From Rhizobium sullae (lineage in GTDB: Bacteria; Pseudomonadota; Alphaproteobacteria; Rhizobiales; Rhizobiaceae): a stretch of DNA of 64,000 nucleotides. The DNA is taken from positions 2,893,501-2,957,500 of the forward strand of contig NZ_CP104143.1 of assembly GCF_025200715.1 (NCBI RefSeq). The letters run 5' to 3'. Position 1 is the first letter of the stretch, and each line of letters starts with the position of its first letter. Position numbers and translations under genes: made by a program. Shown here one piece after another: positions 46,637 through 62,015 of this stretch. The notes below the pieces were generated by a model. The model ran no database searches, was not told where the DNA came from, and saw only the letters and a list, made by a program, of their open reading frames with translations.

Positions 46637-46950
46637 GCGCCCAACAATGCATCAGCGGCCGCAAGGGCACAAGCAGCCGACCGCATCAGGAATTTCAAGA
46701 GAGTGCCGCTGAGGCGCGGATCGGCTCGTGTTGCGAATCGAGGCACTGCCTCAAAATATGCTTTTGGCAGGTTGCCACCGCCAACCAATCCTAAAGGATT
46801 AGCGTTTGGCGCAATCTTCGCCCGAACGGTGTATTGATGCGTGGCCACAACATAATAGGTTCAACCAGCCGCGAAGCACGCCGATATCGCAAGACGCGTC
46901 TTGCAGGGGGATGGCTTTGCGCGGTCAAAATCTGGAAAAGCGAGACTGAC
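46637..46950. other. Intergenic region before the cyclase gene
   Basis: The divergent 314-bp region holds a short inverted repeat AATCC-TAAA-GGATT (46787-46800) and no convincing promoter match or gene. Confidence 0.4.
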
Positions 46951-48855
46951 ATGAGAGAATCCATGGAGAGAGTCATGGAACGGCGACTGAGTGCTATTCT
47001 CGCCGTCGATGTCGTCGGCTTCAGCCGGCTGATGGGTATCGATGAGTCCGGCACGTTGCAGGCGCTGAACCGCCACCGCTGCGAACTGATCGATATTCGA
47101 ATCTCAGACTACAAGGGCCGCATCTTCAAACTTACTGGCGACGGCATCTTCGCCGAGTTCCAGAGCGTGGTGAACGCGGTCGCCTGCGCCGCCGAGATCC
47201 AGCGCAGCATGGCCGTCCGCAACGAGGACGTACCGAAGGAGGAGCGCGTGGAGTTCCGCATCGGCATCAATCTCGGCGATGTTATCGTCGAGGATGGCGA
47301 TGTCTTCGGCGACGGTGTCAATCTGGCGGCGCGGCTGGAGCGCGTCGCGCCTCCGGGCGGCATCGCCGTTTCCTCCATCGTTCGCGATCAGGTGGGCTCG
47401 CGCCTCAATCTCGGCTTCGACTTTTTAGGTGAACACGTGTTCAAAAATATCAGGCAGGCCGTCCCGGTCTACACGGTCGCCTTCAACGCGCCGACTTCGG
47501 CGCGCTTCGTGGCACAGAACCGCAATACCTGCTTCGTCGCCGTCCTGCCCTTCACGAACATGAGCGGCGACGCCGATCAAGACTATTTTTCGGACGGGAT
47601 AACCGAAGACATCATCACAGACCTCTCCAAGATCTCCAGTCTGCACGTCGTTCCACGCAACACCGTCTTCACTTACAAGGGCACGTCGGTAAAGGTGAAG
47701 CAGGTCGCTCAGGAACTCGGCGTTCGCTATATGCTCGAAGGCAGCGTTCGCATCGCCGGCAAGCGCGTGCGTATCTCGAGCCATTTGGTCGACACGATGA
47801 ACGGCGACCATCTCTGGGCCGAACGCTACGATCGCGACCTGACCGACATCTTCGCCATTCAGGATGAGATCACCCATGCCATCGTCAGCCAGTTGAAGGT
47901 GCGCCTGCTGCCGGAGGAGAAAAAGGCGATTGCCGTCGAGCCGACCGCCAATGTCGAGGCCTATACCTATTATCTGCGCGGCCGCCAGCTCTCCCATACC
48001 TGGACGAAATCCTACCTGCAGCTTGCGCGCCGTATGTTCCTCAAGGCGGTCGAACTCGACCCGGACTACGGCCGGGCCTATGCTGGCATCGCCGATTGCG
48101 ACGCGGCAATCCGCGATTGGGCACCGGCGGATGTGCCTTTGAAAGGCATTCTCGAAATGAGTGCCCGCGCCCTGGAGATCGATCCGGACCTTGCCGAGGC
48201 CCATGCCTCCCGCGGCCTGGCGCTCCACCAGAACGGCGAGGACGACAAGGCCATGGCCGCTTTCGAGCGCGCGCTTGCCCTCGACCCCAATCTCTACGAA
48301 GCGAATTTCCACTATGCCCGCTTCTTCTTCATGCGTGGCAATTTCGCCGAGGCGGTGCAATATTTTACCCGCGCCGCCGAAATCCGGCCGGATGACTACG
48401 TCTCTCCCATCCACCTGATGTCCGCCTATCTATCGCTCGGCCGGACGTTGGATAAGGAAAACTGGGCCCGCCTCGGCCTCCAGCGGGCCGAACGGGCGCT
48501 CAACCTCAACCCGGAAAATTCAGGCCCGGCTCATCGCGGCGCGCTGGCGCTTGCCCATCTCGGCGATGCAGTGCGCGCCTGCGACTGGGCAGCACGGGCC
48601 ATCGCCATCGATCCAGACGACATCGTCGCCCAGTACAACCTCGCCTGCGTCCATGCCGTGCTGGGAAACGTGGACAAGGCGATCGATATCCTGGAGGAGT
48701 TGCTGCCGCGCAGCTCGGTTTACCATATCAAGTGGTTCACCCACGATTCGGACCTGGACAATCTGCGCGACGACCCCCGCTTTCGCAAACTGCTGGCGGA
48801 GGCGATGAAGGAGCGCGAACGGATCGAGGGGGGTAGGGAGCGGTGTACTGTGTAG
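46951..48855 (+). CDS. Class III adenylate/guanylate cyclase with FlgO/TolB-like and TPR domains
   Basis: A 634-residue protein of a type common in rhizobia. The N-terminal class III cyclase domain (about residues 10-170) has a metal-binding Asp in ILAVDVVGFSRLMG, then GDGIFAEF and RIGINLGDVIVEDGD, and DGVNLAARLE. A middle domain resembles the FlgO/TolB N-terminal family (VLPFTNMSGDADQDYFSDGI, GVRYMLEGSVRIAGKRVRIS). TPR repeats occupy the rest (DPDLAEAHASRGLAL, ALDPNLYEANFHYARFF). It lacks membrane helices. Starts at 46951, 46963 and 46975 are all in frame; the last has GGAGAG upstream and begins MERRLSAILA, as many relatives do. It may produce cAMP in response to an unknown signal. Confidence 0.85.
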   Translation: MRESMERVMERRLSAILAVDVVGFSRLMGIDESGTLQALNRHRCELIDIRISDYKGRIFKLTGDGIFAEFQSVVNAVACAAEIQRSMAVRNEDVPKEERVEFRIGINLGDVIVEDGDVFGDGVNLAARLERVAPPGGIAVSSIVRDQVGSRLNLGFDFLGEHVFKNIRQAVPVYTVAFNAPTSARFVAQNRNTCFVAVLPFTNMSGDADQDYFSDGITEDIITDLSKISSLHVVPRNTVFTYKGTSVKVKQVAQELGVRYMLEGSVRIAGKRVRISSHLVDTMNGDHLWAERYDRDLTDIFAIQDEITHAIVSQLKVRLLPEEKKAIAVEPTANVEAYTYYLRGRQLSHTWTKSYLQLARRMFLKAVELDPDYGRAYAGIADCDAAIRDWAPADVPLKGILEMSARALEIDPDLAEAHASRGLALHQNGEDDKAMAAFERALALDPNLYEANFHYARFFFMRGNFAEAVQYFTRAAEIRPDDYVSPIHLMSAYLSLGRTLDKENWARLGLQRAERALNLNPENSGPAHRGALALAHLGDAVRACDWAARAIAIDPDDIVAQYNLACVHAVLGNVDKAIDILEELLPRSSVYHIKWFTHDSDLDNLRDDPRFRKLLAEAMKERERIEGGRERCTV

Positions 48856-48956: not shown

Positions 48957-49634
48957 TTGCGCATCCTGCTCACCGAAGACAACATCGCGCTGGCCGACGG
49001 CCTGTCTGCGATCTTGCGCGGTACGGGGCATGCCGTCGACGTCGTCCATGACGGCGCATCCGCCGATGCGGTCATCGCGGCGGAAAATTTCGATCTCGTG
49101 ATCCTCGACCTCAACCTGCCGGAGATGGACGGGCTGGACGTCTTGCGCAGCATGCGCGCCCGGCAGAACCAGGCGGCGGTCCTGATCCTGACCGCACGCG
49201 GAGCGCCGGAGGAGCGGGTCAGGGGCCTCGATCTCGGCGCCGACGATTACCTCATCAAGCCCTTCGACATTGCCGAATTCGAAGCGCGTGTCCGCGTGCT
49301 GCTCCGGCGCCAGGCGGGCCTGCACTCAGCGACGGTGATGTATGGCTGCGTGTCTTTCGACCTCAAATCCCGAACTTTTTCCGCCGGAAACATGCAGCTT
49401 GATATTCCCGCTCGCGAAGTCGGACTGCTTGAAATCCTCTTCATGCGTGCCGGCAAGGTCGTGTCCAAGGAGGCAATCACCCAGTCGCTGACGGCCTTCG
49501 ACGATGACATTTCCGCCAACGCGATCGAGCAATATGTCAGCCGGTTGCGCAAGCGCCTTGCGCCGCATGGATTGACCGTGAAGACCGCACGCGGCATCGG
49601 CTACTATCTCGACAAGCTTCACGAGGCCTCATGA
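48957..49634 (+). CDS. tctD: OmpR-family response regulator, TctD-like
   Basis: The 225-residue regulator has a receiver domain with E7-D8 pocket and phospho-acceptor D51 (VILDLNLPEMDG), and a C-terminal winged helix DNA-binding domain (LDIPAREVGLLEILFM, VSKEAITQSL, AIEQYVSRLRKRLAPHGL). It begins with TTG at 48957; GGGGAA sits six bases upstream, and no ATG fits the frame. The stop overlaps the histidine kinase start by 4 bp (ATGA). By analogy with Salmonella TctDE it may activate the tctCBA operon, supported here by the 11-bp direct repeat upstream of tctC. Confidence 0.9.
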   Translation: MRILLTEDNIALADGLSAILRGTGHAVDVVHDGASADAVIAAENFDLVILDLNLPEMDGLDVLRSMRARQNQAAVLILTARGAPEERVRGLDLGADDYLIKPFDIAEFEARVRVLLRRQAGLHSATVMYGCVSFDLKSRTFSAGNMQLDIPAREVGLLEILFMRAGKVVSKEAITQSLTAFDDDISANAIEQYVSRLRKRLAPHGLTVKTARGIGYYLDKLHEAS

Positions 49635-51013
49635 AAGCCGCCTATTCGCTGAGGCGCCGGTTGCTTTTCTGGCTGCTGATCTCCACCGCCGTCATCGGCA
49701 CGCTAGCACTTGCCGACACATACCGGGAGGCGGTCGAGACCTCGAACATCGTGTCCGACCGTGTGCTTGCCGGTTCGGCGCTTGCCATTGCCGAGCGCGT
49801 TGTCGTGGCAGAGGACGGTACGCTGGAAGTCGATATCCCCTATGTCGCACTGGAAATGCTTACGTCTGCTGCGCAGGATCGGGTGTTCTACCGCGTCGAT
49901 GGCCCGCCCGGAACGTTCATCACCGGCTATCAGGAGCTTCCGGTTCTCAAGGAAACCAAAGGCGACGCGGCCGTCTTCGCAGACGATATTTTCCGCGGCG
50001 AACCGATCCGCGTCGCCACGCTGGAGCGCTCCGCCTCGACCGGTATCCGCTCCGTTCCCTTCGTCGTCACCGTCGCGGAAACGACGATCGCCCGGCGCCA
50101 TCTCGCACGTGCCATCCTTCTTCGTTCGGCTGTCCGCCTCGCCTTCATGATCGCCGGTGCGGCCGTGATCGTCTGGATCTCGGTCTCGGTCGCGCTTCGC
50201 CCGCTCTACAAACTTCGCGATGCGATCGGCGAGCGCAGCCCGGACGACTTGCATCCGATCGAGCAATCGGTGCCGAGCGAGGTGCAGCCGCTGGTGGATA
50301 CGGTGAACAGCTTCATGGTGCGCCTGCAGTCCGCCCTTGACGCCCTTCGGAATTTTACCGGCAATGCCAGCCATCAATTGCGCACGCCGCTTGCCATCAT
50401 CCGGACCCAGCTCGCGCTTTCCGCCCGCGCCGCAACGCTGCCTGAAGCGCAGGACTCGGCCCTGAAGGGCGACCAGGCCGTCGCGCATGCCGAACGCATC
50501 CTCGCCCAGCTGCTGCTGATGGCAAAGATTGACGCCGCAACGGCCAAGGAGGCTCTGGCAGCCTCGAAGATCGACATCGCCGCCATCGCCCAGGACATCA
50601 CGGGCGAGTTGATCCCCGCTGCCGCCGAAGCCGGTATCGACCTGGGGTTCGAAGGTGAAGGTCCTGCGATGATCCGCGCCGAACCCCTGCTGATCGGCGA
50701 ATTGCTGCGCAATCTCGCGGGAAACGCTATCGCATATTCCGGCAAGGGTGCCGAGGTCACCGTGCGGATCGCGCAGGAAGGTGATGCCGTGCGTCTCGAG
50801 GTTGAGGACAATGGTCCCGGTATTCCGCCGGAGAAGCTCGAAGCCGTGCGCCGCCGCTTTTCACGCGGCGGCAACTCCGATGCGCCAGGCGCCGGCCTCG
50901 GCCTCCCGATCGTTGAGGAAATCGCCAATCTTTTCAATGCGATGCTCACGCTCTCGCCAGCGGCCCGCGGCAAGGGGCTCAAAGCCGTCGTCGCCTTTGC
51001 AAAAGTGTCGTAA
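49631..51013 (+). CDS. tctE: Sensor histidine kinase, TctE-like
   Basis: The 460-residue kinase has a first membrane helix (about 12-30, LLFWLLISTAVIGTLALAD), a periplasmic TctE-type sensor domain (to about 165), a second helix (LAFMIAGAAVIVWISVSVAL), a short linker, then a HisKA domain with phospho-acceptor His248 (GNASHQLRTPLAI) and an HATPase domain (NLAGNAIAYSGKG, VEDNGPGIPPEKL, GAGLGLPIVEEI). All kinase boxes look intact. It is translationally coupled to the regulator. The signal may be a carboxylate, perhaps delivered by the nearby solute-binding protein. Confidence 0.9.
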   Translation: MKAAYSLRRRLLFWLLISTAVIGTLALADTYREAVETSNIVSDRVLAGSALAIAERVVVAEDGTLEVDIPYVALEMLTSAAQDRVFYRVDGPPGTFITGYQELPVLKETKGDAAVFADDIFRGEPIRVATLERSASTGIRSVPFVVTVAETTIARRHLARAILLRSAVRLAFMIAGAAVIVWISVSVALRPLYKLRDAIGERSPDDLHPIEQSVPSEVQPLVDTVNSFMVRLQSALDALRNFTGNASHQLRTPLAIIRTQLALSARAATLPEAQDSALKGDQAVAHAERILAQLLLMAKIDAATAKEALAASKIDIAAIAQDITGELIPAAAEAGIDLGFEGEGPAMIRAEPLLIGELLRNLAGNAIAYSGKGAEVTVRIAQEGDAVRLEVEDNGPGIPPEKLEAVRRRFSRGGNSDAPGAGLGLPIVEEIANLFNAMLTLSPAARGKGLKAVVAFAKVS

Positions 51014-51121: not shown

Positions 51122-54100
51122 ATGTCGATCAAAGCCAGCATCTATCATCTGACGCATTACAAATACGACAGACCGGTCCGCCTCGGGCCGCAGGTCATCC
51201 GCCTCAAGCCTGCCTCGCATTCGAAGACGCGCGTGCTCAGTCATTCGCTGAAGGTCACACCGTCGAACCATTTCGTGAACTTGCAGCAGGATCCCTACGG
51301 GAATTATCTTGCCCGCTACGTCTTTCCCGACCCGGTGACCGAATTCAAGATCGAGGTCGATCTGGTCGCCGACATGACGGTCTATAACCCCTTCGACTTC
51401 TTCGTCGAGGAGGAAGCTACCAAATGGCCCTTCGACTATCCTGAGACGATCCAGGAAGACCTCTCGATCTACATGAAGGCGGAGGACCCCGGCCCGCGGC
51501 TCAAGGCTTTCCTCGAAACGCTCGATTATTCGCCGGATCAGCCGACCGTCGACATGATTGTTGGCCTCAACGCCCGCCTGCAGCAGCAGATCGGCTATGT
51601 CATCCGCATGGAAACTGGCGTCCAGACGCCGGAGGAAACACTCGAAATAGCCAAAGGCTCTTGCCGCGATACCAGCTGGCTGTTCGTTCAGGTTCTCCGT
51701 CATCTCGGCCTCGCCGCGCGCTTCGTTTCCGGCTACCTCATCCAGTTGACGCCAGACCTGAAGGCTCTTGACGGCCCCTCCGGCACGGAAGTCGATTTCA
51801 CGGACCTTCATGCCTGGGCCGAGGTCTATCTACCCGGCGCTGGCTGGGTCGGTCTCGACCCCACATCCGGGCTGCTGACTGGTGAAAGCCATATCCCGCT
51901 GGCAGCGACCCCGCATTACCGCAATGCTGCCCCGATCTCCGGCGGCTATTTCGGCGAAGCCAATACCGAGTTCGCCTTCGACATGAACGTGGCCCGTGTC
52001 GCCGAACATCCGCGCATCACCAAGCCATTCTCGGAGGAGAGCTGGAACGAGCTCGACGCGCTTGGCGAAAAAGTGGATAGCATCCTCAAAGCAGAAGACG
52101 TGCGCCTGACGATGGGTGGGGAACCCACTTTCGTGTCGATCGACGATTTCGAATCGGAAGAGTGGAATACCGCCGCCGTAGGCCCGACAAAACGGGAGAA
52201 GGCGGACAGCCTGATCCGCAGGCTGCGCCAGCGCTTCGCTCCGGGCGGCTTCCTGCATTACGGACAAGGCAAGTGGTATCCCGGCGAAAGCCTGCCGCGC
52301 TGGACCTTCTCGCTCTATTGGCGCAAGGACGGAATGCCGATCTGGCAGAATCCGGATTTGATCGCGGCAGAAGGCGCCGATACCGCCGCCAAGGCCGACG
52401 ACGCCGAGCGGCTGCTCACCGGCATCGCGCGCGAGCTGGCGATTGCGCCTGACATGGTGCTGCCCGCCTATGAAGATCCCGCTGAATGGATCGTCAAGGA
52501 AGGAAGCCTTCCCGAAAATGTCGATCCGTCGAATTCCAAGCTGAAGGATCCGGAAGAGCGCAGCCGCATCGCCCGCGTCTTCGAACGGGGCCTGACGGTT
52601 CCGACAGGCTACATTCTTCCGGTACAGGCCTGGAATGCCAAGGCCGCGGGACACCGCTGGATCAGCGAGAAATGGCAGACCCGGCGCGGCAAGATCTTCC
52701 TTGTGCCGGGCGACAGTCCGGTCGGATACCGTCTGCCGCTTGGCACACTTCCTTACGTGCCGCCATCGCAATATCCTTATATCCACATCGCCGACCCATC
52801 GATCCCCCGCCAGCCCCTGCCCGAAGTTTTGGTGCCCGCCGGCCGCGCCATGCCAGAGGCCTCCTTTCAGCGCGACGAGAGCGGCCAGAGCCGCGTGGAA
52901 CAGACGCTCGGCGAAATCGGCGGCGCGGTTCGCACGGCGATATCGGTCGAGCCGCGCGACGGCCGGCTTTGCGTCTTCATGCCGCCCGTCGAGCGCATCG
53001 AAGACTACCTCGAGCTCATCGCAGCCGCCGAAAACGCGGCGGCTGAACTTGGCCTTGCCGTCCATATCGAGGGCTATTCGCCGCCACAGGACGAGCGCAT
53101 CAACGTCATTCGTGTCGCACCGGATCCAGGTGTCATCGAGGTGAATATCCATCCCGCCTCGAACTGGCAGGATTGCGTCGCGATCACCACCGCGATCTAC
53201 GAAGAAGCGCGGATGACCCGCCTCGGCGCCGACAAGTTCATGATCGACGGCCGTCATACGGGCACGGGCGGCGGTAACCATGTCGTCGTCGGCGGCGCCA
53301 ACCCGAACGACAGTCCGTTCCTGCGCCGGCCCGACCTCTTGAAGAGCCTTGTGCTGCATTGGCAGCGGCATCCTTCGCTCTCCTACCTCTTCTCCGGCAT
53401 GTTCATCGGACCAACCAGCCAGGCGCCGCGCATCGACGAGGCCAGGCACGACAGCCTGTACGAGTTGGAAATCGCGCTTGCCCATGTCCCCGCACCCGGC
53501 GGCGGCCCGCAACCGCTTCCCTGGTTGGCCGACCGTCTGTTCCGCAATCTGCTGATCGACGTGACAGGCAATACGCACCGGGCCGAAATCTGCATCGACA
53601 AGCTTTTTTCGCCGGATGGGCCAACCGGCCGTCTCGGTCTCGTCGAGTTCCGCGGCTTCGAAATGCCCCCGAATGCCCGCATGTCGCTGGCTCAGCAATT
53701 GATGGTCCGCGCCCTCATTGCCCGTTTCTGGAAAAATCCCGCGGATGGCAAATTCGTGCGCTGGGGCACTTCCCTGCACGATCGCTTCATGCTGCCGCAT
53801 TTCGTCTGGGCCGATTTCCTGGACGTGCTCGCCGATCTCAAGGAGAACGGTTTCGATGTCAGTCCGGAATGGTTCAAGGCGCAACTCGAATTCCGCTTCC
53901 CCTTCTGCGGCGAAGTGGAATACGAGGGCTCGAAACTCGAGCTCCGTCAGGCGCTCGAACCTTGGCACGTCATGGGCGAGGAAGGCGCGATCGGCGGCAC
54001 CGTTCGATACGTCGACAGCTCGGTCGAGCGACTTCAGGTTCGCCTCGAAACCAGCAATTCCTCACGCTACACCGTCACCTGCAACGGCCGAACCGTGCCG

Positions 54101-54445
54101 CTGACGCCAACAGGCACGTCCGGTGTGTCCGTCGCCGGGGTCCGCTTTAAGGCATGGCAGCCGTCCTCGGGCCTGCATCCGGTTTTGCCGGTGAACACGC
54201 CGCTGACATTTGACATTTATGATACATGGTCGAAGCGTTCGATCGGCGGCTGCATCTATCATGTTGCCCATCCGGGCGGGCGCAACTATGACACCTTCCC
54301 GGTAAACGGCAACGAAGCGGAAGCAAGGCGGCTCTCCCGATTCGAGCCGTGGGGGCATACGGCCGGCGGCTTCATTCCGCTCGCCGAGACGGGTTCGCCG
54401 GAATTCCCGCTGACGCTGGATCTCCGCAGGCCCACAGGCATTTGA
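51122..54445 (+). CDS. Transglutaminase-like protein with C-terminal DUF2126 domain
   Basis: The 1107-residue protein starts with a transglutaminase N-terminal beta domain ([18 protein letters not shown]), then a transglutaminase/protease-like domain with a complete Cys-His-Asp triad: C181 in [11 protein letters not shown]230 in [10 protein letters not shown]246 in GLDPTSG. Residues about 330-1107 form the DUF2126 region, which includes [20 protein letters not shown] and an [15 protein letters not shown] segment typical of a nucleotide-dependent amidoligase-like fold. The ATG at 51122 is chosen over an upstream frame. It is the first gene of a three-gene unit with an ATP-grasp-alpha-E fusion and a second transglutaminase. 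No signal peptide is present. Confidence 0.88.
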
Positions 54446-54459
54446 CGAGCTAGGTTTTA

Positions 54460-56880
54460 ATGGGCAAGAAACCGGCAGTGGCGAAGCGCAGGGACGAGGT
54501 TCAAAGCCGCGGCGGCAACGATGCGGCCTTCGGCTATGCGCCTCTGCCCGGCATTGCCGACGAGATGGTTGACAACGACGGCGCAATCCGTCCGGTCTGG
54601 CAGCGCTTTCTTGCGGGCTTCGGGGCAATTCCGCAGCAGGAACTAACCGAGCGTTTCGCCCGTGCCGACCGCTATCTGCGCGATGCCGGCGTGTTCTACC
54701 GCGCTTATGGCAGCAAGGGCACCGGCGAGCGGTCTTGGCCACTGTCGCATATCCCGGTCCTGATCGACGAGCGCGAATGGCAGGCGCTTTCCGCCGGCCT
54801 CGTGCAGCGCGCCGATATGCTCGAGGCGATCGTCGCCGACATCTATGGCGACAACAAACTGGTCGAGGAAGGCTTTCTGCCGCCCGCCCTGATTGCGGCC
54901 AATCCGGAATTCCAGCGCCCGCTTGCCGGGATAAAGCCCGCGACCGGCCACTACCTGCATTTCTGTGCCTTCGAGATCGGCCGCGGACCGGACGGTAACT
55001 GGTGGGTACTAGCCGACCGCACGCAAGCGCCGTCAGGTGCAGGCTTCGCGCTCGAAAGTCGCGTTGCCACCACCCGCGCCTTTTCCGATATCTATGCCGA
55101 AACTCCGGTCCATCGCCTCGCCTCCTTCTTCGGCGCCTTCCGCGACGCGCTGCAGGCGATGAAGCACTCCGGCGACGACCGCATCGGCGTTCTGACCCCC
55201 GGCCCGGCAAACGAGACCTATTACGAGCACGCCTATATCGCCCGCTATCTCGGCTTCATGCTGCTCGAAGGCGAAGATCTGACGGTGGTCAACGGCCGCG
55301 TCATGGTTCGCACGGTGGCCGGCCTGAAGCCGATCGGCGTGCTCTGGCGCCGCCTCGATTCCGCCTACGCCGATCCGCTGGAGCTGAACCAGAATTCGCA
55401 TATCGGCACGCCTGGTCTGGTCGAGGCGCTGCGTGCCGAATCGGTGACGATCGTCAATGCTCTCGGAACCGGCATCCTCGAGACGCGCGCCCTGCTCGCC
55501 TTCATGCCGACGATCTGTCGCCGCTTGCTCGGCGAAAAACTGCACCTGCCGTCGATCGCCACATGGTGGTGCGGGCAAAAGGAAGAACGCGAGCATGTCG
55601 CTAAGAACATCGAGAAGATGGTGATCGGTCCCGCCTATTCGCGCGCGCCCTTCTTCGACGACAGCGGCGAATCCGTGCTCGGCTCGTCACTCCGCGCAAC
55701 CGCAAAGGACTCGATCACCGACTGGCTGAATTCCGACGGTCCGAAACTCGTCGGCCAGGAAGTCGTGACGCTGTCGACAACGCCGGCCTGGGTGGACGGG
55801 AAGCTGACGCCGCGGCCGATGTCGCTTCGCGTCTTTGCTGCCCGCACCGCCAATGGCTGGCAGATCATGCCGGGCGGCTTTGCCCGCATCGGCGCCGGCG
55901 CCGATGCTGCCGCGATCGCCATGCAGTCGGGCGGCGCGGCGGCGGACGTCTGGATCGTCAGCGACAAGCCGGTCGAGCGCCATACGCTGCTGCCCGCCGA
56001 AGGAAGCTTCACGCGCAACATGCCGGGCAGCCTGCCGAGCCGGGCGGCCGACAATCTCTTCTGGCTCGGCCGCTATATCGAGCGCGCCGAAGGAGCGCTG
56101 CGTATCCTTCGTGCCTGGCATGCGCGCTATGCCGAAGCCGCCGATCCGAGCCAGCCGCTGCTTGCCGATGTTTCGGAATATCTCGCCGCCGTCGACATCG
56201 ACACGGAAGAAGCCGTGCCCGAAACGCTGCTGCGCAACATCGACAGCGCCGTCTATTCCGCCAGCAATATCCGCGACCGGTTCTCGCCCGACGGCTGGCT
56301 GGCGCTCAACGATCTTGCCAAGACCGCGCACCGTTTCCACGTCAGCGTTGCCGCGGGCGACGACGCCAGCCATGCCATGACGATCCTGCTGCGCAAGCTC
56401 GCGGGCTTCGCAGGTCTCGTGCACGAAAACATGTATCGCTTCACCGGATGGCGCTTCCTCTCGCTCGGCCGCTACATCGAGCGCGGACTGCACATGACGC
56501 GGCTCCTCGGCCATATGTCCGGTCCCGAAGCTCCGGATGGCGCGCTGGACATGCTGCTCGAAATCGGCGACAGCGTCATGACCCACCGCCGCCGCTACAA
56601 CGTCAACACCGCGCGCCTGACCGTCACCGATCTTCTGGCGCTCGATCCGCTGAACCCGCGCTCGGTTCTCTTCCAGATGAATGAGATCCATCGCGAGGTC
56701 GAGCAACTGCCGAACGCCTTCGTCAACGGCCAGATGTCGCCCTTCTACCGCGAGGCCATGCGTCTGCATTCGGGCCTCGCCGTCATGACGCCGGAAGCGA
56801 TGACGGGCGAGATCTACAAGAAGTTCGAACGCGAGCTGGAGCAGCTCTCCGACCTTCTCGCCCAGACCTATCTCGGGTGA
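54460..56880 (+). CDS. Circularly permuted ATP-grasp / alpha-E (DUF403) fusion protein
   Basis: The 806-residue protein fuses two normally separate proteins. Residues about 30-510 form a circularly permuted ATP-grasp enzyme (HIPVLIDEREW, HFCAFEIGRGPDGNWWVLAD, GVLTPGPANETYYEHAYIAR, WCGQKEEREH). Residues about 520-800 form the alpha-helical alpha-E/DUF403 domain (SRAADNLFWLGRYIERAEG, HENMYRFTGWRFLSLGRYIE). ATP-grasp enzymes of this class are thought to make peptide or amide bonds; alpha-E may be a partner or carrier. It starts 15 bp after the DUF2126 gene and its stop overlaps the next start (GTGA). Encoding both as one chain supports an obligate complex. Confidence 0.9.
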   Translation: MGKKPAVAKRRDEVQSRGGNDAAFGYAPLPGIADEMVDNDGAIRPVWQRFLAGFGAIPQQELTERFARADRYLRDAGVFYRAYGSKGTGERSWPLSHIPVLIDEREWQALSAGLVQRADMLEAIVADIYGDNKLVEEGFLPPALIAANPEFQRPLAGIKPATGHYLHFCAFEIGRGPDGNWWVLADRTQAPSGAGFALESRVATTRAFSDIYAETPVHRLASFFGAFRDALQAMKHSGDDRIGVLTPGPANETYYEHAYIARYLGFMLLEGEDLTVVNGRVMVRTVAGLKPIGVLWRRLDSAYADPLELNQNSHIGTPGLVEALRAESVTIVNALGTGILETRALLAFMPTICRRLLGEKLHLPSIATWWCGQKEEREHVAKNIEKMVIGPAYSRAPFFDDSGESVLGSSLRATAKDSITDWLNSDGPKLVGQEVVTLSTTPAWVDGKLTPRPMSLRVFAARTANGWQIMPGGFARIGAGADAAAIAMQSGGAAADVWIVSDKPVERHTLLPAEGSFTRNMPGSLPSRAADNLFWLGRYIERAEGALRILRAWHARYAEAADPSQPLLADVSEYLAAVDIDTEEAVPETLLRNIDSAVYSASNIRDRFSPDGWLALNDLAKTAHRFHVSVAAGDDASHAMTILLRKLAGFAGLVHENMYRFTGWRFLSLGRYIERGLHMTRLLGHMSGPEAPDGALDMLLEIGDSVMTHRRRYNVNTARLTVTDLLALDPLNPRSVLFQMNEIHREVEQLPNAFVNGQMSPFYREAMRLHSGLAVMTPEAMTGEIYKKFERELEQLSDLLAQTYLG

Positions 56881-57764
56881 CCGCCGTGCTCTACGACCTC
56901 ACCCTGCACATGGAATACACCTACGAGACGCCAGCCTCCGGCGCGCGCCACATCATGCGGCTGATGCCGCTGTCTCTGCCCGATCGCCAGCGGCTGGTTG
57001 CTGGCTCGATTGCCATTTCTCCGCAGCCGGATGAGCAATCGCATTTTACCGATTTCTTCCGCCATCCGGCGACGTCCTTCCTGCTGCGGTCGCCGCACGA
57101 GACGCTGGATATCCGCATGCAGGCCCGCGTGCAGGTCGATAGCCGCTCGATCGCCGCCGATTTCTCGCCGGACCTCGACCGCCTTCCGGAGGAAGTCGCC
57201 GGCATCTGGTCGCTGGAGCCGGACTCTCCACATCATTTCCTCGCCAGCAGCCCGCGCCTCACGGAAACTCGCGCGATTTCCGACTATGCCAGGGACTGCG
57301 CTCTGCACGGCCTCACCGTCCTGCAGATCGCCAACGCCTTGTGCACCCGCATCAACAGGGATTTCACCTACGACACGGAAGCGACGACGGTGGATTCCAC
57401 CGCCCTCGACGCTTTCAAGCTGAAACGCGGCGTCTGCCAGGATTTCGTCCATGTGATGATCCTCGCACTCCGCAGCCTCGGCATTCCGGCAGGCTATGTC
57501 TCAGGCTTCCTGCGCACTATCCCGCCGCCCGGCAAGGAACGGCTCGAAGGGGCGGATGCCATGCATGCCTGGGTCCGCGTCTGGTGCGGCGAAACGCTGG
57601 GCTGGATTGAGCTCGACCCGACCAACGACATGCCCGCCGGCACCGACCACATCGTCGTCGCCTACGGCCGCGACTACTCCGACGTCGCCCCCGTCATCGG
57701 CGTCCTGAAAAGCTACGGCGGCCACCGCGCCGTCCAGGCGGTCGACGTTATTCCGATCAAGTAA
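56877..57764 (+). CDS. Transglutaminase-like protein (short form)
   Basis: The 295-residue protein has the same two-domain plan as the N-terminal part of the first gene: a beta-domain (LYDLTLHMEYTYETPASGA), then a transglutaminase-like core with a complete triad, C187 (GVCQDFVHVMILALRSLGI), H230 (DAMHAWVRVW) and D247 (IELDPTNDM). Peptidase rather than crosslinking activity is usual for such bacterial proteins. It starts with GTG overlapping the previous stop (GTGA); a second in-frame GTG follows three codons later. It completes the three-gene unit. Confidence 0.9.
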   Translation: MTAVLYDLTLHMEYTYETPASGARHIMRLMPLSLPDRQRLVAGSIAISPQPDEQSHFTDFFRHPATSFLLRSPHETLDIRMQARVQVDSRSIAADFSPDLDRLPEEVAGIWSLEPDSPHHFLASSPRLTETRAISDYARDCALHGLTVLQIANALCTRINRDFTYDTEATTVDSTALDAFKLKRGVCQDFVHVMILALRSLGIPAGYVSGFLRTIPPPGKERLEGADAMHAWVRVWCGETLGWIELDPTNDMPAGTDHIVVAYGRDYSDVAPVIGVLKSYGGHRAVQAVDVIPIK

Positions 57765-58087: not shown

Positions 58088-59281
58088 ATGATGTCCCCCA
58101 TATCTTTTCTACGCTCCAATATTGCGCGCATCCTACGCGACCGTTCAGGCAATTTCGCCATGATGACGGCGATTCTAATGCCGGTGGCGATTGGTGCGGC
58201 CGGTATAGCAGTCGATGTATCCAGTATGATGCTTTCGCAACGCCAGTTGCAGGAAGCCTCCGATTCGGCTGCTCTGGCCGCGGCCTCCGCGCTCGTCGCC
58301 GAAGACGTCGATGTGAATGGCGCCAAGGAGCTTGCCAAGAACTTTGTCATTGGCCAGATGTCAAACTACCTCGACGATTCGGATACCATCGCGGCCCTAA
58401 AGGATGGAATGTCTGTCGTTGTCACCGAAACTACATCCGGTTCGGGCGGCAAGACTTATAAAGTTGAGGTCAAAACTGCCTACAACATGGCCAACAGCGC
58501 CCTGGTGCGCATCATGGGCAGAGAGAGCACCGAAATCGGTTCATTGTCCAAGACGGAAAGCAGCACCGAAAATACCGTCACAGAGAGCTCGCTCTCAATG
58601 TATCTCGTGCTCGACCGTTCGGGCTCGATGGCTGAAGATACCACGTCTTCGTATACGAAGACGGAAAGCTACAACTGTGGCACGCAATGGAGCCCAAAGA
58701 CCTGTGAACGAACTGTTACGGACTACTACACCAAGATCGAGGCATTGAAGCTGGCAGTTTCCAGCCTGCTGACCCAGTTGAATACCGCCGATCCTAATCT
58801 GCAATACGTCCGCACCGGCAGCGTCTCTTACAATGACCAAATGCAGTCAGCATTGAAGCTGGCCTGGGGAACGTCGCGCGTCTCGACCTACGTCAACGCT
58901 CTAACCGCGACAGGTGGGACGAATTCAAGTGCTGCCTTCAAGGCCGCCTATAACAAGCTTAGCGACCCGGCCGAGAATACAGCACATTTGAATAAGAACG
59001 GCCTGACGCCAGACAAATACATTGTCTTCATGACAGACGGCAACAACAATTACACTTCAGCCGACACTGAAACCAAAGAATGGTGCGACTTGGCGCGCGA
59101 TAAAAATATCACGGTCTATACGGTTGCGTTCATGGCTCCTGATCGCGGCAAGGCGCTGCTTAGCTATTGCGCGACGAGCTCTTCTACCTATTTCGCCGCC
59201 GAGAACATGGCCTCGCTTGTCGCCGCCTTCAAGATAATCGGTTCCTCGGCCGCCAAGCAGAGCGTGCGCCTCACCCAATAA
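58088..59281 (+). CDS. TadG-like membrane-anchored vWA domain protein
   Basis: The 397-residue protein has an N-terminal TadE/TadG-type region (RDRSGNFAMMTAILMPVAIG, then DVSSMMLSQRQLQEASDSAA), an anchor helix at about residues 24-45, and a von Willebrand A domain with the MIDAS motif D176-x-S-x-S (LDRSGSM), and YIVFMTDGNNNYT and ITVYTVAFMAP in the C-terminal half. MIDAS metal ligands suggest binding of a protein partner. No other Tad/Flp pilus genes are in the window. It is less GC-rich and uses more AAA and ACA codons than adjacent operons. The first ATG follows AGGTGAC. A terminator follows. Confidence 0.85.
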   Translation: MMSPISFLRSNIARILRDRSGNFAMMTAILMPVAIGAAGIAVDVSSMMLSQRQLQEASDSAALAAASALVAEDVDVNGAKELAKNFVIGQMSNYLDDSDTIAALKDGMSVVVTETTSGSGGKTYKVEVKTAYNMANSALVRIMGRESTEIGSLSKTESSTENTVTESSLSMYLVLDRSGSMAEDTTSSYTKTESYNCGTQWSPKTCERTVTDYYTKIEALKLAVSSLLTQLNTADPNLQYVRTGSVSYNDQMQSALKLAWGTSRVSTYVNALTATGGTNSSAAFKAAYNKLSDPAENTAHLNKNGLTPDKYIVFMTDGNNNYTSADTETKEWCDLARDKNITVYTVAFMAPDRGKALLSYCATSSSTYFAAENMASLVAAFKIIGSSAAKQSVRLTQ

Positions 59282-59546: not shown

Positions 59547-62011
59547 ATGACGATGAATACCGTTTCCAAGCCGACCATCCCCTCTCCCGCTCCGCGCAGT
59601 TCCCGGCCGGAAATTCTCGCCGAAGAAATCATCGAACGCCTGACTTACCGCATCGGCAAGGATGCAAAGGTTGCCAAGCCGCATGACTGGCTGACGGCGA
59701 CTATCCTCGTCGTTCGCGACCGCATCATCGACAAATGGATGGAGTCTACGCGTAAGGTCTACGCGACCGGCGACAAGCGCGTTTACTATCTGTCGCTCGA
59801 ATTCCTGATCGGCCGCCTGATGCGCGATGCCGTCACGAACATGGGCCTGATGGAGCAGGTGCGCGATGCGCTGACCTCCCTCGGCGTCGACGTCAACGTG
59901 ATCGCCGGCCTCGAGCCGGATGCCGCCCTCGGCAATGGCGGCCTCGGACGCCTCGCGGCCTGTTTCATGGAAAGCATGGCGACGGTCGAGGTGCCGGCCT
60001 ATGGTTACGGCATCCGGTACGTCCACGGCCTCTTCCGCCAGCAACTCGCCGACGGCTGGCAGGTGGAACTGCCGGAAAGCTGGCTGGCGCACGGCAATCC
60101 CTGGGAGTTCGAACGCCGCGAAAGCGCCTATGAAATCGGCTACGGCGGCGCCGTCGACGTCGCCAACGACGCCGAAGGCGAGCCGCGCTATGTCTGGAAA
60201 CCGGCAGAGCGCGTCATCGCCGCTGCCTTCGACACTCCGGTGGTCGGCTGGCGCGGCAAGCGCGTCAACACGTTGCGTCTCTGGTCGGCCCAGCCGATCG
60301 ACCCGATCCTGCTCGACGCCTTCAATGCCGGCGACCACATCGGCGCTCTGCGCGAAAGCAACAAGGCCGAAAGCCTGACGCGGGTGCTCTATCCGGCGGA
60401 CGCAACGCCGGCCGGGCAGGAGCTGCGTCTTCGCCAGGAATTCTTCTTCTCCTCCGCCTCGCTTCAGGACATCCTGCGCCGCCACCTGCAGCAATATGAC
60501 GATTTCACCTCATTGCCCGACAAGGTCGCGATCCAGCTGAACGACACCCACCCAGCCGTTTCGGTGGCCGAGCTGACGCGCCTGCTGTGCGACGTCCACG
60601 GCATGGATTTCGAGCAAGCCTTCGACATCGTCCGCCGCACGATTTCCTACACCAATCACACGCTCCTGCCGGAAGCTCTCGAAACTTGGCCGATCCCGCT
60701 CTTTGAACGGCTGCTGCCGCGGCACATGCAGCTGATCTACGCGATCAACGCCAAGATCCTGCTTGAGGCCCGCAGGGAAAAGAACTTCACCGACACCGAA
60801 ATCCGGTCGATTTCGCTGATCGACGAAAGCGGAGATCGCCGGGTGCGCATGGGCAACCTCGCCTTCGTCGGCTCGCATTCGATCAACGGCGTCTCCGCCT
60901 TGCATACCGAACTTATGAAGGTCACGGTCTTTGCGGACCTGCACAAGCTTTATCCGAACCGCATCAACAACAAGACGAACGGCATCACCCCGCGCCGCTG
61001 GCTGCAGCAATGCAACCCCGGGCTTACCGGCCTCATCCGCGAGGCGATCGGCGACGAATTCATGGATGACGCCGAGAAGCTGAAGCCGCTCGAAAAATTC
61101 GCCACCGATCCGAGCTTCCAGGAAAGGTTCGGCGCCGTAAAGCGCGCGAACAAGGTGGCGCTTTCCAATCTTGTCGCCAGCCGCATGGGCGTGAAGATTG
61201 ATCCTTCCGCGATGTTCGACATTCAGATCAAGCGCATCCACGAATACAAACGCCAGCTGCTTAACGTTATCGAGGCGGTGGCCCTCTATGACCAGATCCG
61301 ATCGCATCCGGAACTCGACTGGGTGCCGCGCGTGAAGCTATTCGCCGGCAAGGCGGCGCCGAGCTACCACAACGCCAAGCTCATCATCAAGCTGATCAAC
61401 GACGTCTCCCGCACGATCAATAACGACCCGGCTGTCCGTGGCCTCCTGAAAGTGGTCTTCATACCCAATTACAATGTCTCGCTTGCCGAGGTCATGGTGC
61501 CCGCAGCGGATCTGTCTGAGCAGATTTCGACCGCCGGCATGGAAGCCTCCGGCACCGGCAACATGAAATTCGGTCTGAATGGGGCGCTTACGATCGGAAC
61601 ACTGGACGGGGCGAATGTCGAAATGCGCGACAATGTCGGTGCCGACAACATCGTCATCTTCGGCCTTCGAGCGGACGAAGTCTCCGACGCCCGCAGCGAC
61701 GGACACAACCCGCGCGCCATCATCGAAAGCTCCCGCGAACTGTCGCAGGCGCTGGCTTCGATCGCCGGCGGCGTCTTCTCGCCGGATGACCGCAATCGCT
61801 ACGCCCAGCTGATCGATGGCATTTATTCGCACGACTGGTTCATGGTCGCCGCCGATTTCGATGCCTACGCGGCCGCGCAGAGAGACGTGGACCAGATCTG
61901 GAACAAGCCGTCCTCCTGGTATGCCAAGACCATCAACAATACCGCTCGAATGGGCTGGTTCTCCTCCGACCGCACGATTCGGCAGTATGCCGATGAAATC
62001 TGGAGAGCCGG

Positions 62012-62015
<4 letters not shown>
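59547..62015 (+). CDS. glgP: Glycogen phosphorylase
   Basis: The 822-residue PLP-dependent phosphorylase releases glucose-1-phosphate from glycogen. YYLSLEFLIGRLMRDAVTNMG and ALGNGGLGRLAACFMES are N-terminal hallmarks. The PLP lysine is K674 in GTGNMKFGLNGALTIG. NDTHPAVSVAELTRLL and KRIHEYKRQLLNV are typical core segments. Length is standard and all seem intact. ATG at 59547 has GGCGAGAT upstream; a second Met two codons later is possible. The stop overlaps the glgB start (ATGA). Confidence 0.97.

Follow-up and report, generated by a model that had tools for sequence, protein, structure and literature searches.

The window analyzed here is a stretch of 64,000 nucleotides from Rhizobium sullae (contig NZ_CP104143.1, positions 2,893,501 to 2,957,500), part of a host genome of 7.6 Mb in 4 contigs. 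Its positions 51122 to 57764 hold three large open reading frames (ORFs) on the + strand, delimited by the ORF list and assigned domains with Pfam. ORF1 (51122..54445, 1107 amino acids) joins a transglutaminase-like (TG) domain to DUF2126, a predicted glutamine-synthetase-type amidoligase. Pfam places Bact_transglu_N at residues 6-83 (51137..51370), Transglut_core with C181, H230 and D246 at residues 140-247 (51539..51862; also from alignments) and DUF2126 at residues 279-1102 (51956..54427; 1337.9 bits). ORF2 (54460..56880, 806 amino acids) matches CP_ATPgrasp_2 with 464.9 bits and then Alpha-E with 203.6 bits; the model and residue counts described below delimit a circularly permuted ATP-grasp fold of the glutathione-synthetase type at residues 34-503 (54559..55968), and Pfam and alignment place Alpha-E at residues 525-805 (56032..56874). 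ORF3 (56877..57764, 295 amino acids) is transglutaminase-like, matching Bact_transglu_N and Transglut_core, and contains C187, H230 and D247. NCBIfam returned no name for any of the three, and their nearest named homologs are from Rhizobium. The initial annotation, made by reading the sequence, had described a tightly packed unit with DUF2126 in one protein and an ATP-grasp/Alpha-E fusion in the middle; all of this stands except for one spacing, as ORF2 and ORF3 do overlap by 4 bases while ORF1 and ORF2 are separated by 14 bases rather than 15.

The central observation concerns the ATP-grasp domain of ORF2, which keeps its fold but has lost most of the residues presumed to bind ATP and Mg. Relatives in which the ATP-grasp domain is not fused to Alpha-E have six such residues—E155, N157, K316, K363, D423 and N454—and all six are present in 61 of 61 unfused proteins. 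Among 131 distinct fused proteins 113 keep none and 18 keep a single one, with ORF2 itself keeping none. These 131, among which near-copies remain, derive from 134 rows that included three repeats of the same sequence (none kept in 116/134 and one in 18/134 before the repeats were removed). Left out of the counts were rows containing X, ATP-grasp segments no longer than 330 residues and fused rows whose ORF had no Alpha-E match (with an exception for locus L226 in the 134-row count); an earlier, smaller count covered 52 and 56 rows. We first saw the loss by eye against the host's unfused ATP-grasp protein (L004:9514-10923) and then counted it, and it was seen again in a single-sequence alignment of ORF2 with 3n6x. 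The glycine loop is lost as well: G369 is kept in 13, G370 in 19 and G372 in 21 of the 131 fused rows, and these positions vary even within the fused clade. The initial annotation had missed this loss; it had cast the ATP-grasp domain as the peptide-making part, to be given up if the active site proved lost. We rejected that role for ORF2, as one residue of the six at most is kept in 131/131 fused proteins, compared with all six in 61/61 unfused ones.

We read the six positions as ATP and Mg ligands because of their alignment with glutathionylspermidine synthetase/amidase (Gss) and because of the motif order of glutathione synthetase. In three joint alignments with 31 Gss-like proteins, E. coli Gss E330, N332, K498 and K533 align with E155, N157, K316 and K363, the K498 and K533 columns being gaps in 16 of the 31 Gss-like rows. 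In the same kind of alignment D142 pairs with Gss D318. D318, E330, N332, K498 and K533 of Gss have catalytic roles. Gss R316 shifted between two positions across the alignments and was not used. Aligning a profile of the unfused family to one of E. coli Gss or of the 31 Gss-like proteins found no match, while plain multiple alignment worked. The motif order in unfused ATP-grasp proteins agrees with that of glutathione synthetase, in which a lysine pair and a glycine loop bind the ATP phosphates and acidic residues bind Mg (excerpts of PMC2845819).

The loss is not complete, and two features weigh against a dead ligase. The D142 position is acidic in all 131 fused rows (D in 77, E in 54; E in ORF2), and some of the replacement residues are themselves conserved, with R at position 157 in 116/131 and Q at position 159 in 109/131. 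ORF2 could thus still be an ATP-dependent ligase that works through the replacement residues, in which case an ATP-grasp peptide maker would hold after all. Its kept fold would also allow this, and an ATP-grasp protein from an operon that encodes the proteasome-like protease Anbu, with separate ATP-grasp and Alpha-E genes, released phosphate from ATP (excerpts of PMC6376114). Against this, one clade has lost at once two of the metal ligands, the glycine loop and both lysines that would hold the phosphates, and the glycine-loop positions are not constant within it. We consider it very unlikely that the fused ATP-grasp protein is the ligase. Since most of its ATP/Mg residues are gone, ORF2 is most likely a pseudo-ligase, and we conclude from the aligned residues that it is probably a helper and that the bond-making step lies elsewhere.

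The predicted model of ORF2 retains a glutathione-synthetase-type fold, consistent with its profile match to circularly permuted ATP-grasp (PF14403/PF04174), and several residues presumed to line the substrate side are still present; S192, E256, R297, R298, R457 and R476 of ORF2 are candidates for binding a carboxylate. In the tree one fully supported branch parts fused from unfused proteins. As judged from sequence, the two are long-separated paralogs and not interchangeable versions of one protein. Fused and split forms thus both exist, as the initial annotation had stated, although as separate paralogs of which the host has both. The longest branch of the tree belongs to the fused protein of locus L227. 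The Alpha-E part of ORF2, matched by the PF04168 profile, retains its Glu-Arg motifs E541-R542 and E674-R675, which are nearly invariant among 129 fused rows (E541 98%, R542 100%, E674 99% and R675 100%). Foldseek and VIA matches to this part are generic helical proteins.

In ORF1 and ORF3, which match the PF01841 profile, the Cys-His-Asp triads noted in the initial annotation are intact. C181/H230/D246 of ORF1 is invariant in both alignments (22 and 53 rows) and C187/H230/D247 of ORF3 is kept in 129/129 rows, counting only rows of 240-340 amino acids; both TG domains look active by this measure. The DUF2126 part of ORF1 matches PF09899, described in Pfam as 'putative amidoligase', and E334, E673, N675, H720, E842 and R844 are invariant in the 22- and 53-row alignments. 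Of these, E334, H720, E842 and R844 may resemble glutamine synthetase motifs. Pfam matched no further family of the glutamine-synthetase kind to ORF1. The ORF1 model, of medium confidence, gave glutamine-synthetase matches mostly across residues ~300-930; Foldseek matches to unrelated long proteins at E > 0.009 were disregarded. DUF2126, which the initial annotation had given only as a label, is by this model a likelier candidate than ORF2 for the unit's ATP-dependent ligase.

An intact ATP-grasp ligase is encoded elsewhere in the host. Its own genome contains an unfused ATP-grasp/Alpha-E/TG set (L004:7739-10923), the ATP-grasp gene of which (L004:9514-10923) keeps all six ATP/Mg residues. There are two Alpha-E genes in this genome, the second at C1:2410584-2411513, elsewhere on the chromosome, where it accompanies a TG and an unfused ATP-grasp with all six residues. 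A few kb from the unfused set lie two more adjacent transglutaminase-like genes on the + strand (L004:3603-4478 and L004:4541-5383).

The same pairing is found across a sample of 299 genomes from one phylum. DUF2126 is present in 84 of them and Alpha-E in 156, about half of the sample, and Alpha-E accompanies DUF2126 in 84/84 genomes. The control genome of Synechococcus elongatus, from another phylum, has matches for both. An unfused ATP-grasp match at E 1e-110 or better was found in 80/80 DUF2126 genomes tested, and in three of the remaining four (G000, G107 and G130) the unfused gene was seen directly, giving 83/84, with intactness checked in 61 rows, fewer than the genomes matched. In 27 of 55 DUF2126 loci, representing 15 of 26 families, the fetched stretch also includes the unfused ATP-grasp gene, whose orientation varies; this count was not blind, as a few stretch ends were set to include Alpha-E matches already listed. 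Among the 72 Alpha-E genomes without DUF2126, a fused gene is clear in 8 and likely in another 3. In 10 of these 11 an ORF3-type TG gene adjoins the fused gene, and the unfused ATP-grasp was seen in 10 of the 11, the eleventh being a 74% complete assembly. Because DUF2126 genomes hold both Alpha-E and unfused ATP-grasp, the unit of the window seems to be a further layer added to an active ligase, and the whole is probably a cycle of amide synthesis and cleavage.

The arrangement of the three genes recurs more than chance would allow. A pattern scan with the DUF2126 alignment yielded at least 593 loci, and the best 80, nearly all from Alphaproteobacteria, were taken further. The order DUF2126, fused protein and TG on one strand is found in 70 of these 80, in accordance with the consistent neighborhood foreseen in the initial annotation. 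In three others the contig stops inside the fused gene, and seven show DUF2126 alone, two of them likewise truncated by a contig end. The other five (L147, L149, L163, L180 and L196) have no fused gene beside DUF2126 despite room for one; the search there covered the locus and not the rest of the genome. In a second set, comprising 55 of the 84 DUF2126 loci of the genome sample from 26 families and chosen for variety, the fused gene and an ORF3-type TG share the stretch with DUF2126 in 50/55 loci. An inseparable triad as a strict rule was rejected, since DUF2126 occurs without the fused gene and fused and TG genes occur together without DUF2126.

We tested eight genes that flank the unit in the window, and homologs of each occur in at most 14/80 loci, which suggests a unit of just three genes; other recurrent neighbors were not sought. 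Genes for a response regulator and a histidine kinase of the 2CSK_N type (48957-51013) end 108 bases upstream of ORF1. A larger operon including this two-component pair was rejected, as its homologs are found in just 3/80 loci. Further upstream, 46834-48855 encodes a single protein with a guanylate/adenylate-cyclase domain followed by TPR repeats. Downstream lie a Tad-like protein that carries a von Willebrand A domain (58088-59281) and then a glycogen-phosphorylase-like ORF named by eye (glgP-like, 59547-62015); homologs of these two occur in 14/80 loci each.

Several loci depart from the common layout. At L095:7109-10136 a divergent, shorter DUF2126 protein of 713 amino acids is accompanied by a transglutaminase encoded as a separate upstream gene. 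In L075, L083 and L084 (family f28) DUF2126 adjoins an unfused ATP-grasp/Alpha-E/TG set and there is no fused protein; Anbu lies near DUF2126 on the same contigs. At L227:8014-13777 unfused ATP-grasp, Alpha-E, fused pseudo-ligase and TG genes stand in series without DUF2126.

An Anbu query against the host genome found no Anbu, the sole proteasome-fold match being HslV, which agrees with the absence reported in the initial annotation. Across the sample Anbu (E 1e-15 or better) is present in 100/299 genomes, 99 of which also have Alpha-E; G094 is the only Anbu-positive genome without an Alpha-E match. Anbu occurs in 50/95 genomes with DUF2126 or a fused protein, compared with 49/61 Alpha-E genomes with neither (Fisher p 0.0006, uncorrected for kinship). 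From the distributions of Anbu and DUF2126, the unfused ATP-grasp/Alpha-E set looks like a core on which Anbu and the window's unit form two layers.

These distributions also bear on protein tagging, a role that, according to excerpts of PMC6376114, has been proposed for the Anbu operon. Here the ligases would add an amide or isopeptide tag that the transglutaminase-like proteins, and Anbu where present, would remove. The near-constant company of Alpha-E in Anbu genomes (99/100) fits such a scheme. Yet no gene for a tag protein or peptide was seen within the three-gene unit, no flanking gene among the eight tested is widespread (other recurrent flanks were not sought), and Anbu is missing in the host and in 45 of the 95 genomes that have DUF2126 or a fused protein. 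We regard tagging as quite improbable.

Hints of regulation by nitrogen come from other species only. The large TG protein of a Burkholderia cenocepacia cluster may carry DUF2126. This cluster, consisting of DUF404/407, DUF403, TG and the large TG protein, depends on NtrC and sigma54 (excerpts of PMC5491218). According to parts of PMC8050072, the nitrogen source affects expression of the ATP-grasp and Anbu genes of Pseudomonas putida; in reporter assays nitrogen changed the output of the ATP-grasp promoter and not that of the Anbu promoter. Excerpts of PMC5666114 report that Anbu is up in nitrogen-limited P. putida and that the operon is unchanged under various other conditions. The unit could thus be mainly degradative, its amidases freeing ammonia or amino acids under nitrogen limitation, with ORF2 binding substrate and DUF2126 working in the salvage direction. 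In addition to the nitrogen-regulated relatives, marine metagenomes in which these domains are associated with urea metabolism (excerpts of PMC3597751) speak for this, and pairs of fused and TG genes without DUF2126 would fit a cutting role. However, the constant presence of an unfused ATP-grasp ligase points to synthesis too, and no regulatory site was found here: searches for a sigma54 promoter upstream of ORF1 and of the host's unfused gene found none, and relatives showed no enrichment. A mainly degradative role is, in our view, unlikely.

We slightly favor, at a little better than even confidence, a cytoplasmic unit for amide-bond synthesis and cleavage in which ORF1 to ORF3 are accessory to the active ATP-grasp ligase encoded elsewhere. 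Such a unit would act on an amide-linked small molecule, possibly a small peptide or a peptide-amine conjugate. DUF2126, with its predicted glutamine-synthetase-like fold, would be the unit's own ATP-dependent carboxylate-amine ligase, and the unfused ligase would form amide bonds as well. The TG domains may serve as cysteine amidases or acyl-transferases on the same amide. ORF2 might bind what the active ligase uses or makes and pass it to the transglutaminases, or regulate that ligase as a dead partner. The product would be expected to need the unfused ligase first and ORF1 to ORF3 second, with DUF2126 and not ORF2 as the ATP-dependent amide former. A more specific version of this scheme is tentative: ORF2 may be a pseudo-ligase that retains a substrate pocket of the glutathione-synthetase type, re-used as a carrier or dead partner that receives the acyl substrate or product from the active unfused ATP-grasp/Alpha-E ligase and presents it to the transglutaminases and DUF2126. 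In that case the unit would be an ancient addition to the Alpha-E core and Anbu a second, partly alternative one. If true, this would be a two-tier amide pathway organized by a pseudo-enzyme.

Among the matches listed in our literature search, none reported an experimental product for the unit or mentioned DUF2126. Overall, the initial interpretation is partly supported, and the window holds an ordinary member of a known neighborhood. Iyer et al. 2009 reportedly described this neighborhood, including inactive ATP-grasp forms often fused to Alpha-E, and the Pfam descriptions of PF04174 and PF04168 refer to the same DUF2126-transglutaminase, inactive ATP-grasp-Alpha-E and transglutaminase neighborhood. 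Compared with that account, the unit has the same three domain sets and does not differ in kind. What the present analysis contributes is a count of the lost residues, the placement of the fused proteins in one clade, the retention of the substrate side and the joint occurrence of the unit with an unfused ligase. The Anbu operon has homologous ATP-grasp, Alpha-E and transglutaminase families, and the host set at L004:7739-10923 is of that type; the window's ATP-grasp, by contrast, is fused and most likely inactive, DUF2126 comes in addition, and a search of the genome found no Anbu. The unfused circularly permuted ATP-grasp protein 3n6x from Methylobacillus flagellatus has the six residues that ORF2 lacks. 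Gss, YgiC/YjfC and eukaryotic glutathione synthetase share the circularly permuted ATP-grasp fold of ORF2. Our working analogy is glutathionylspermidine synthetase/amidase with its functions split over several proteins: E. coli Gss, annotated as a fused amidase/synthetase, pairs a ligase with a cysteine amidase. In ORF2, by comparison, most ATP/Mg residues are gone and Alpha-E stands in place of the amidase, while the cysteine enzymes of the window are transglutaminase-like and lie outside the ATP-grasp chain.

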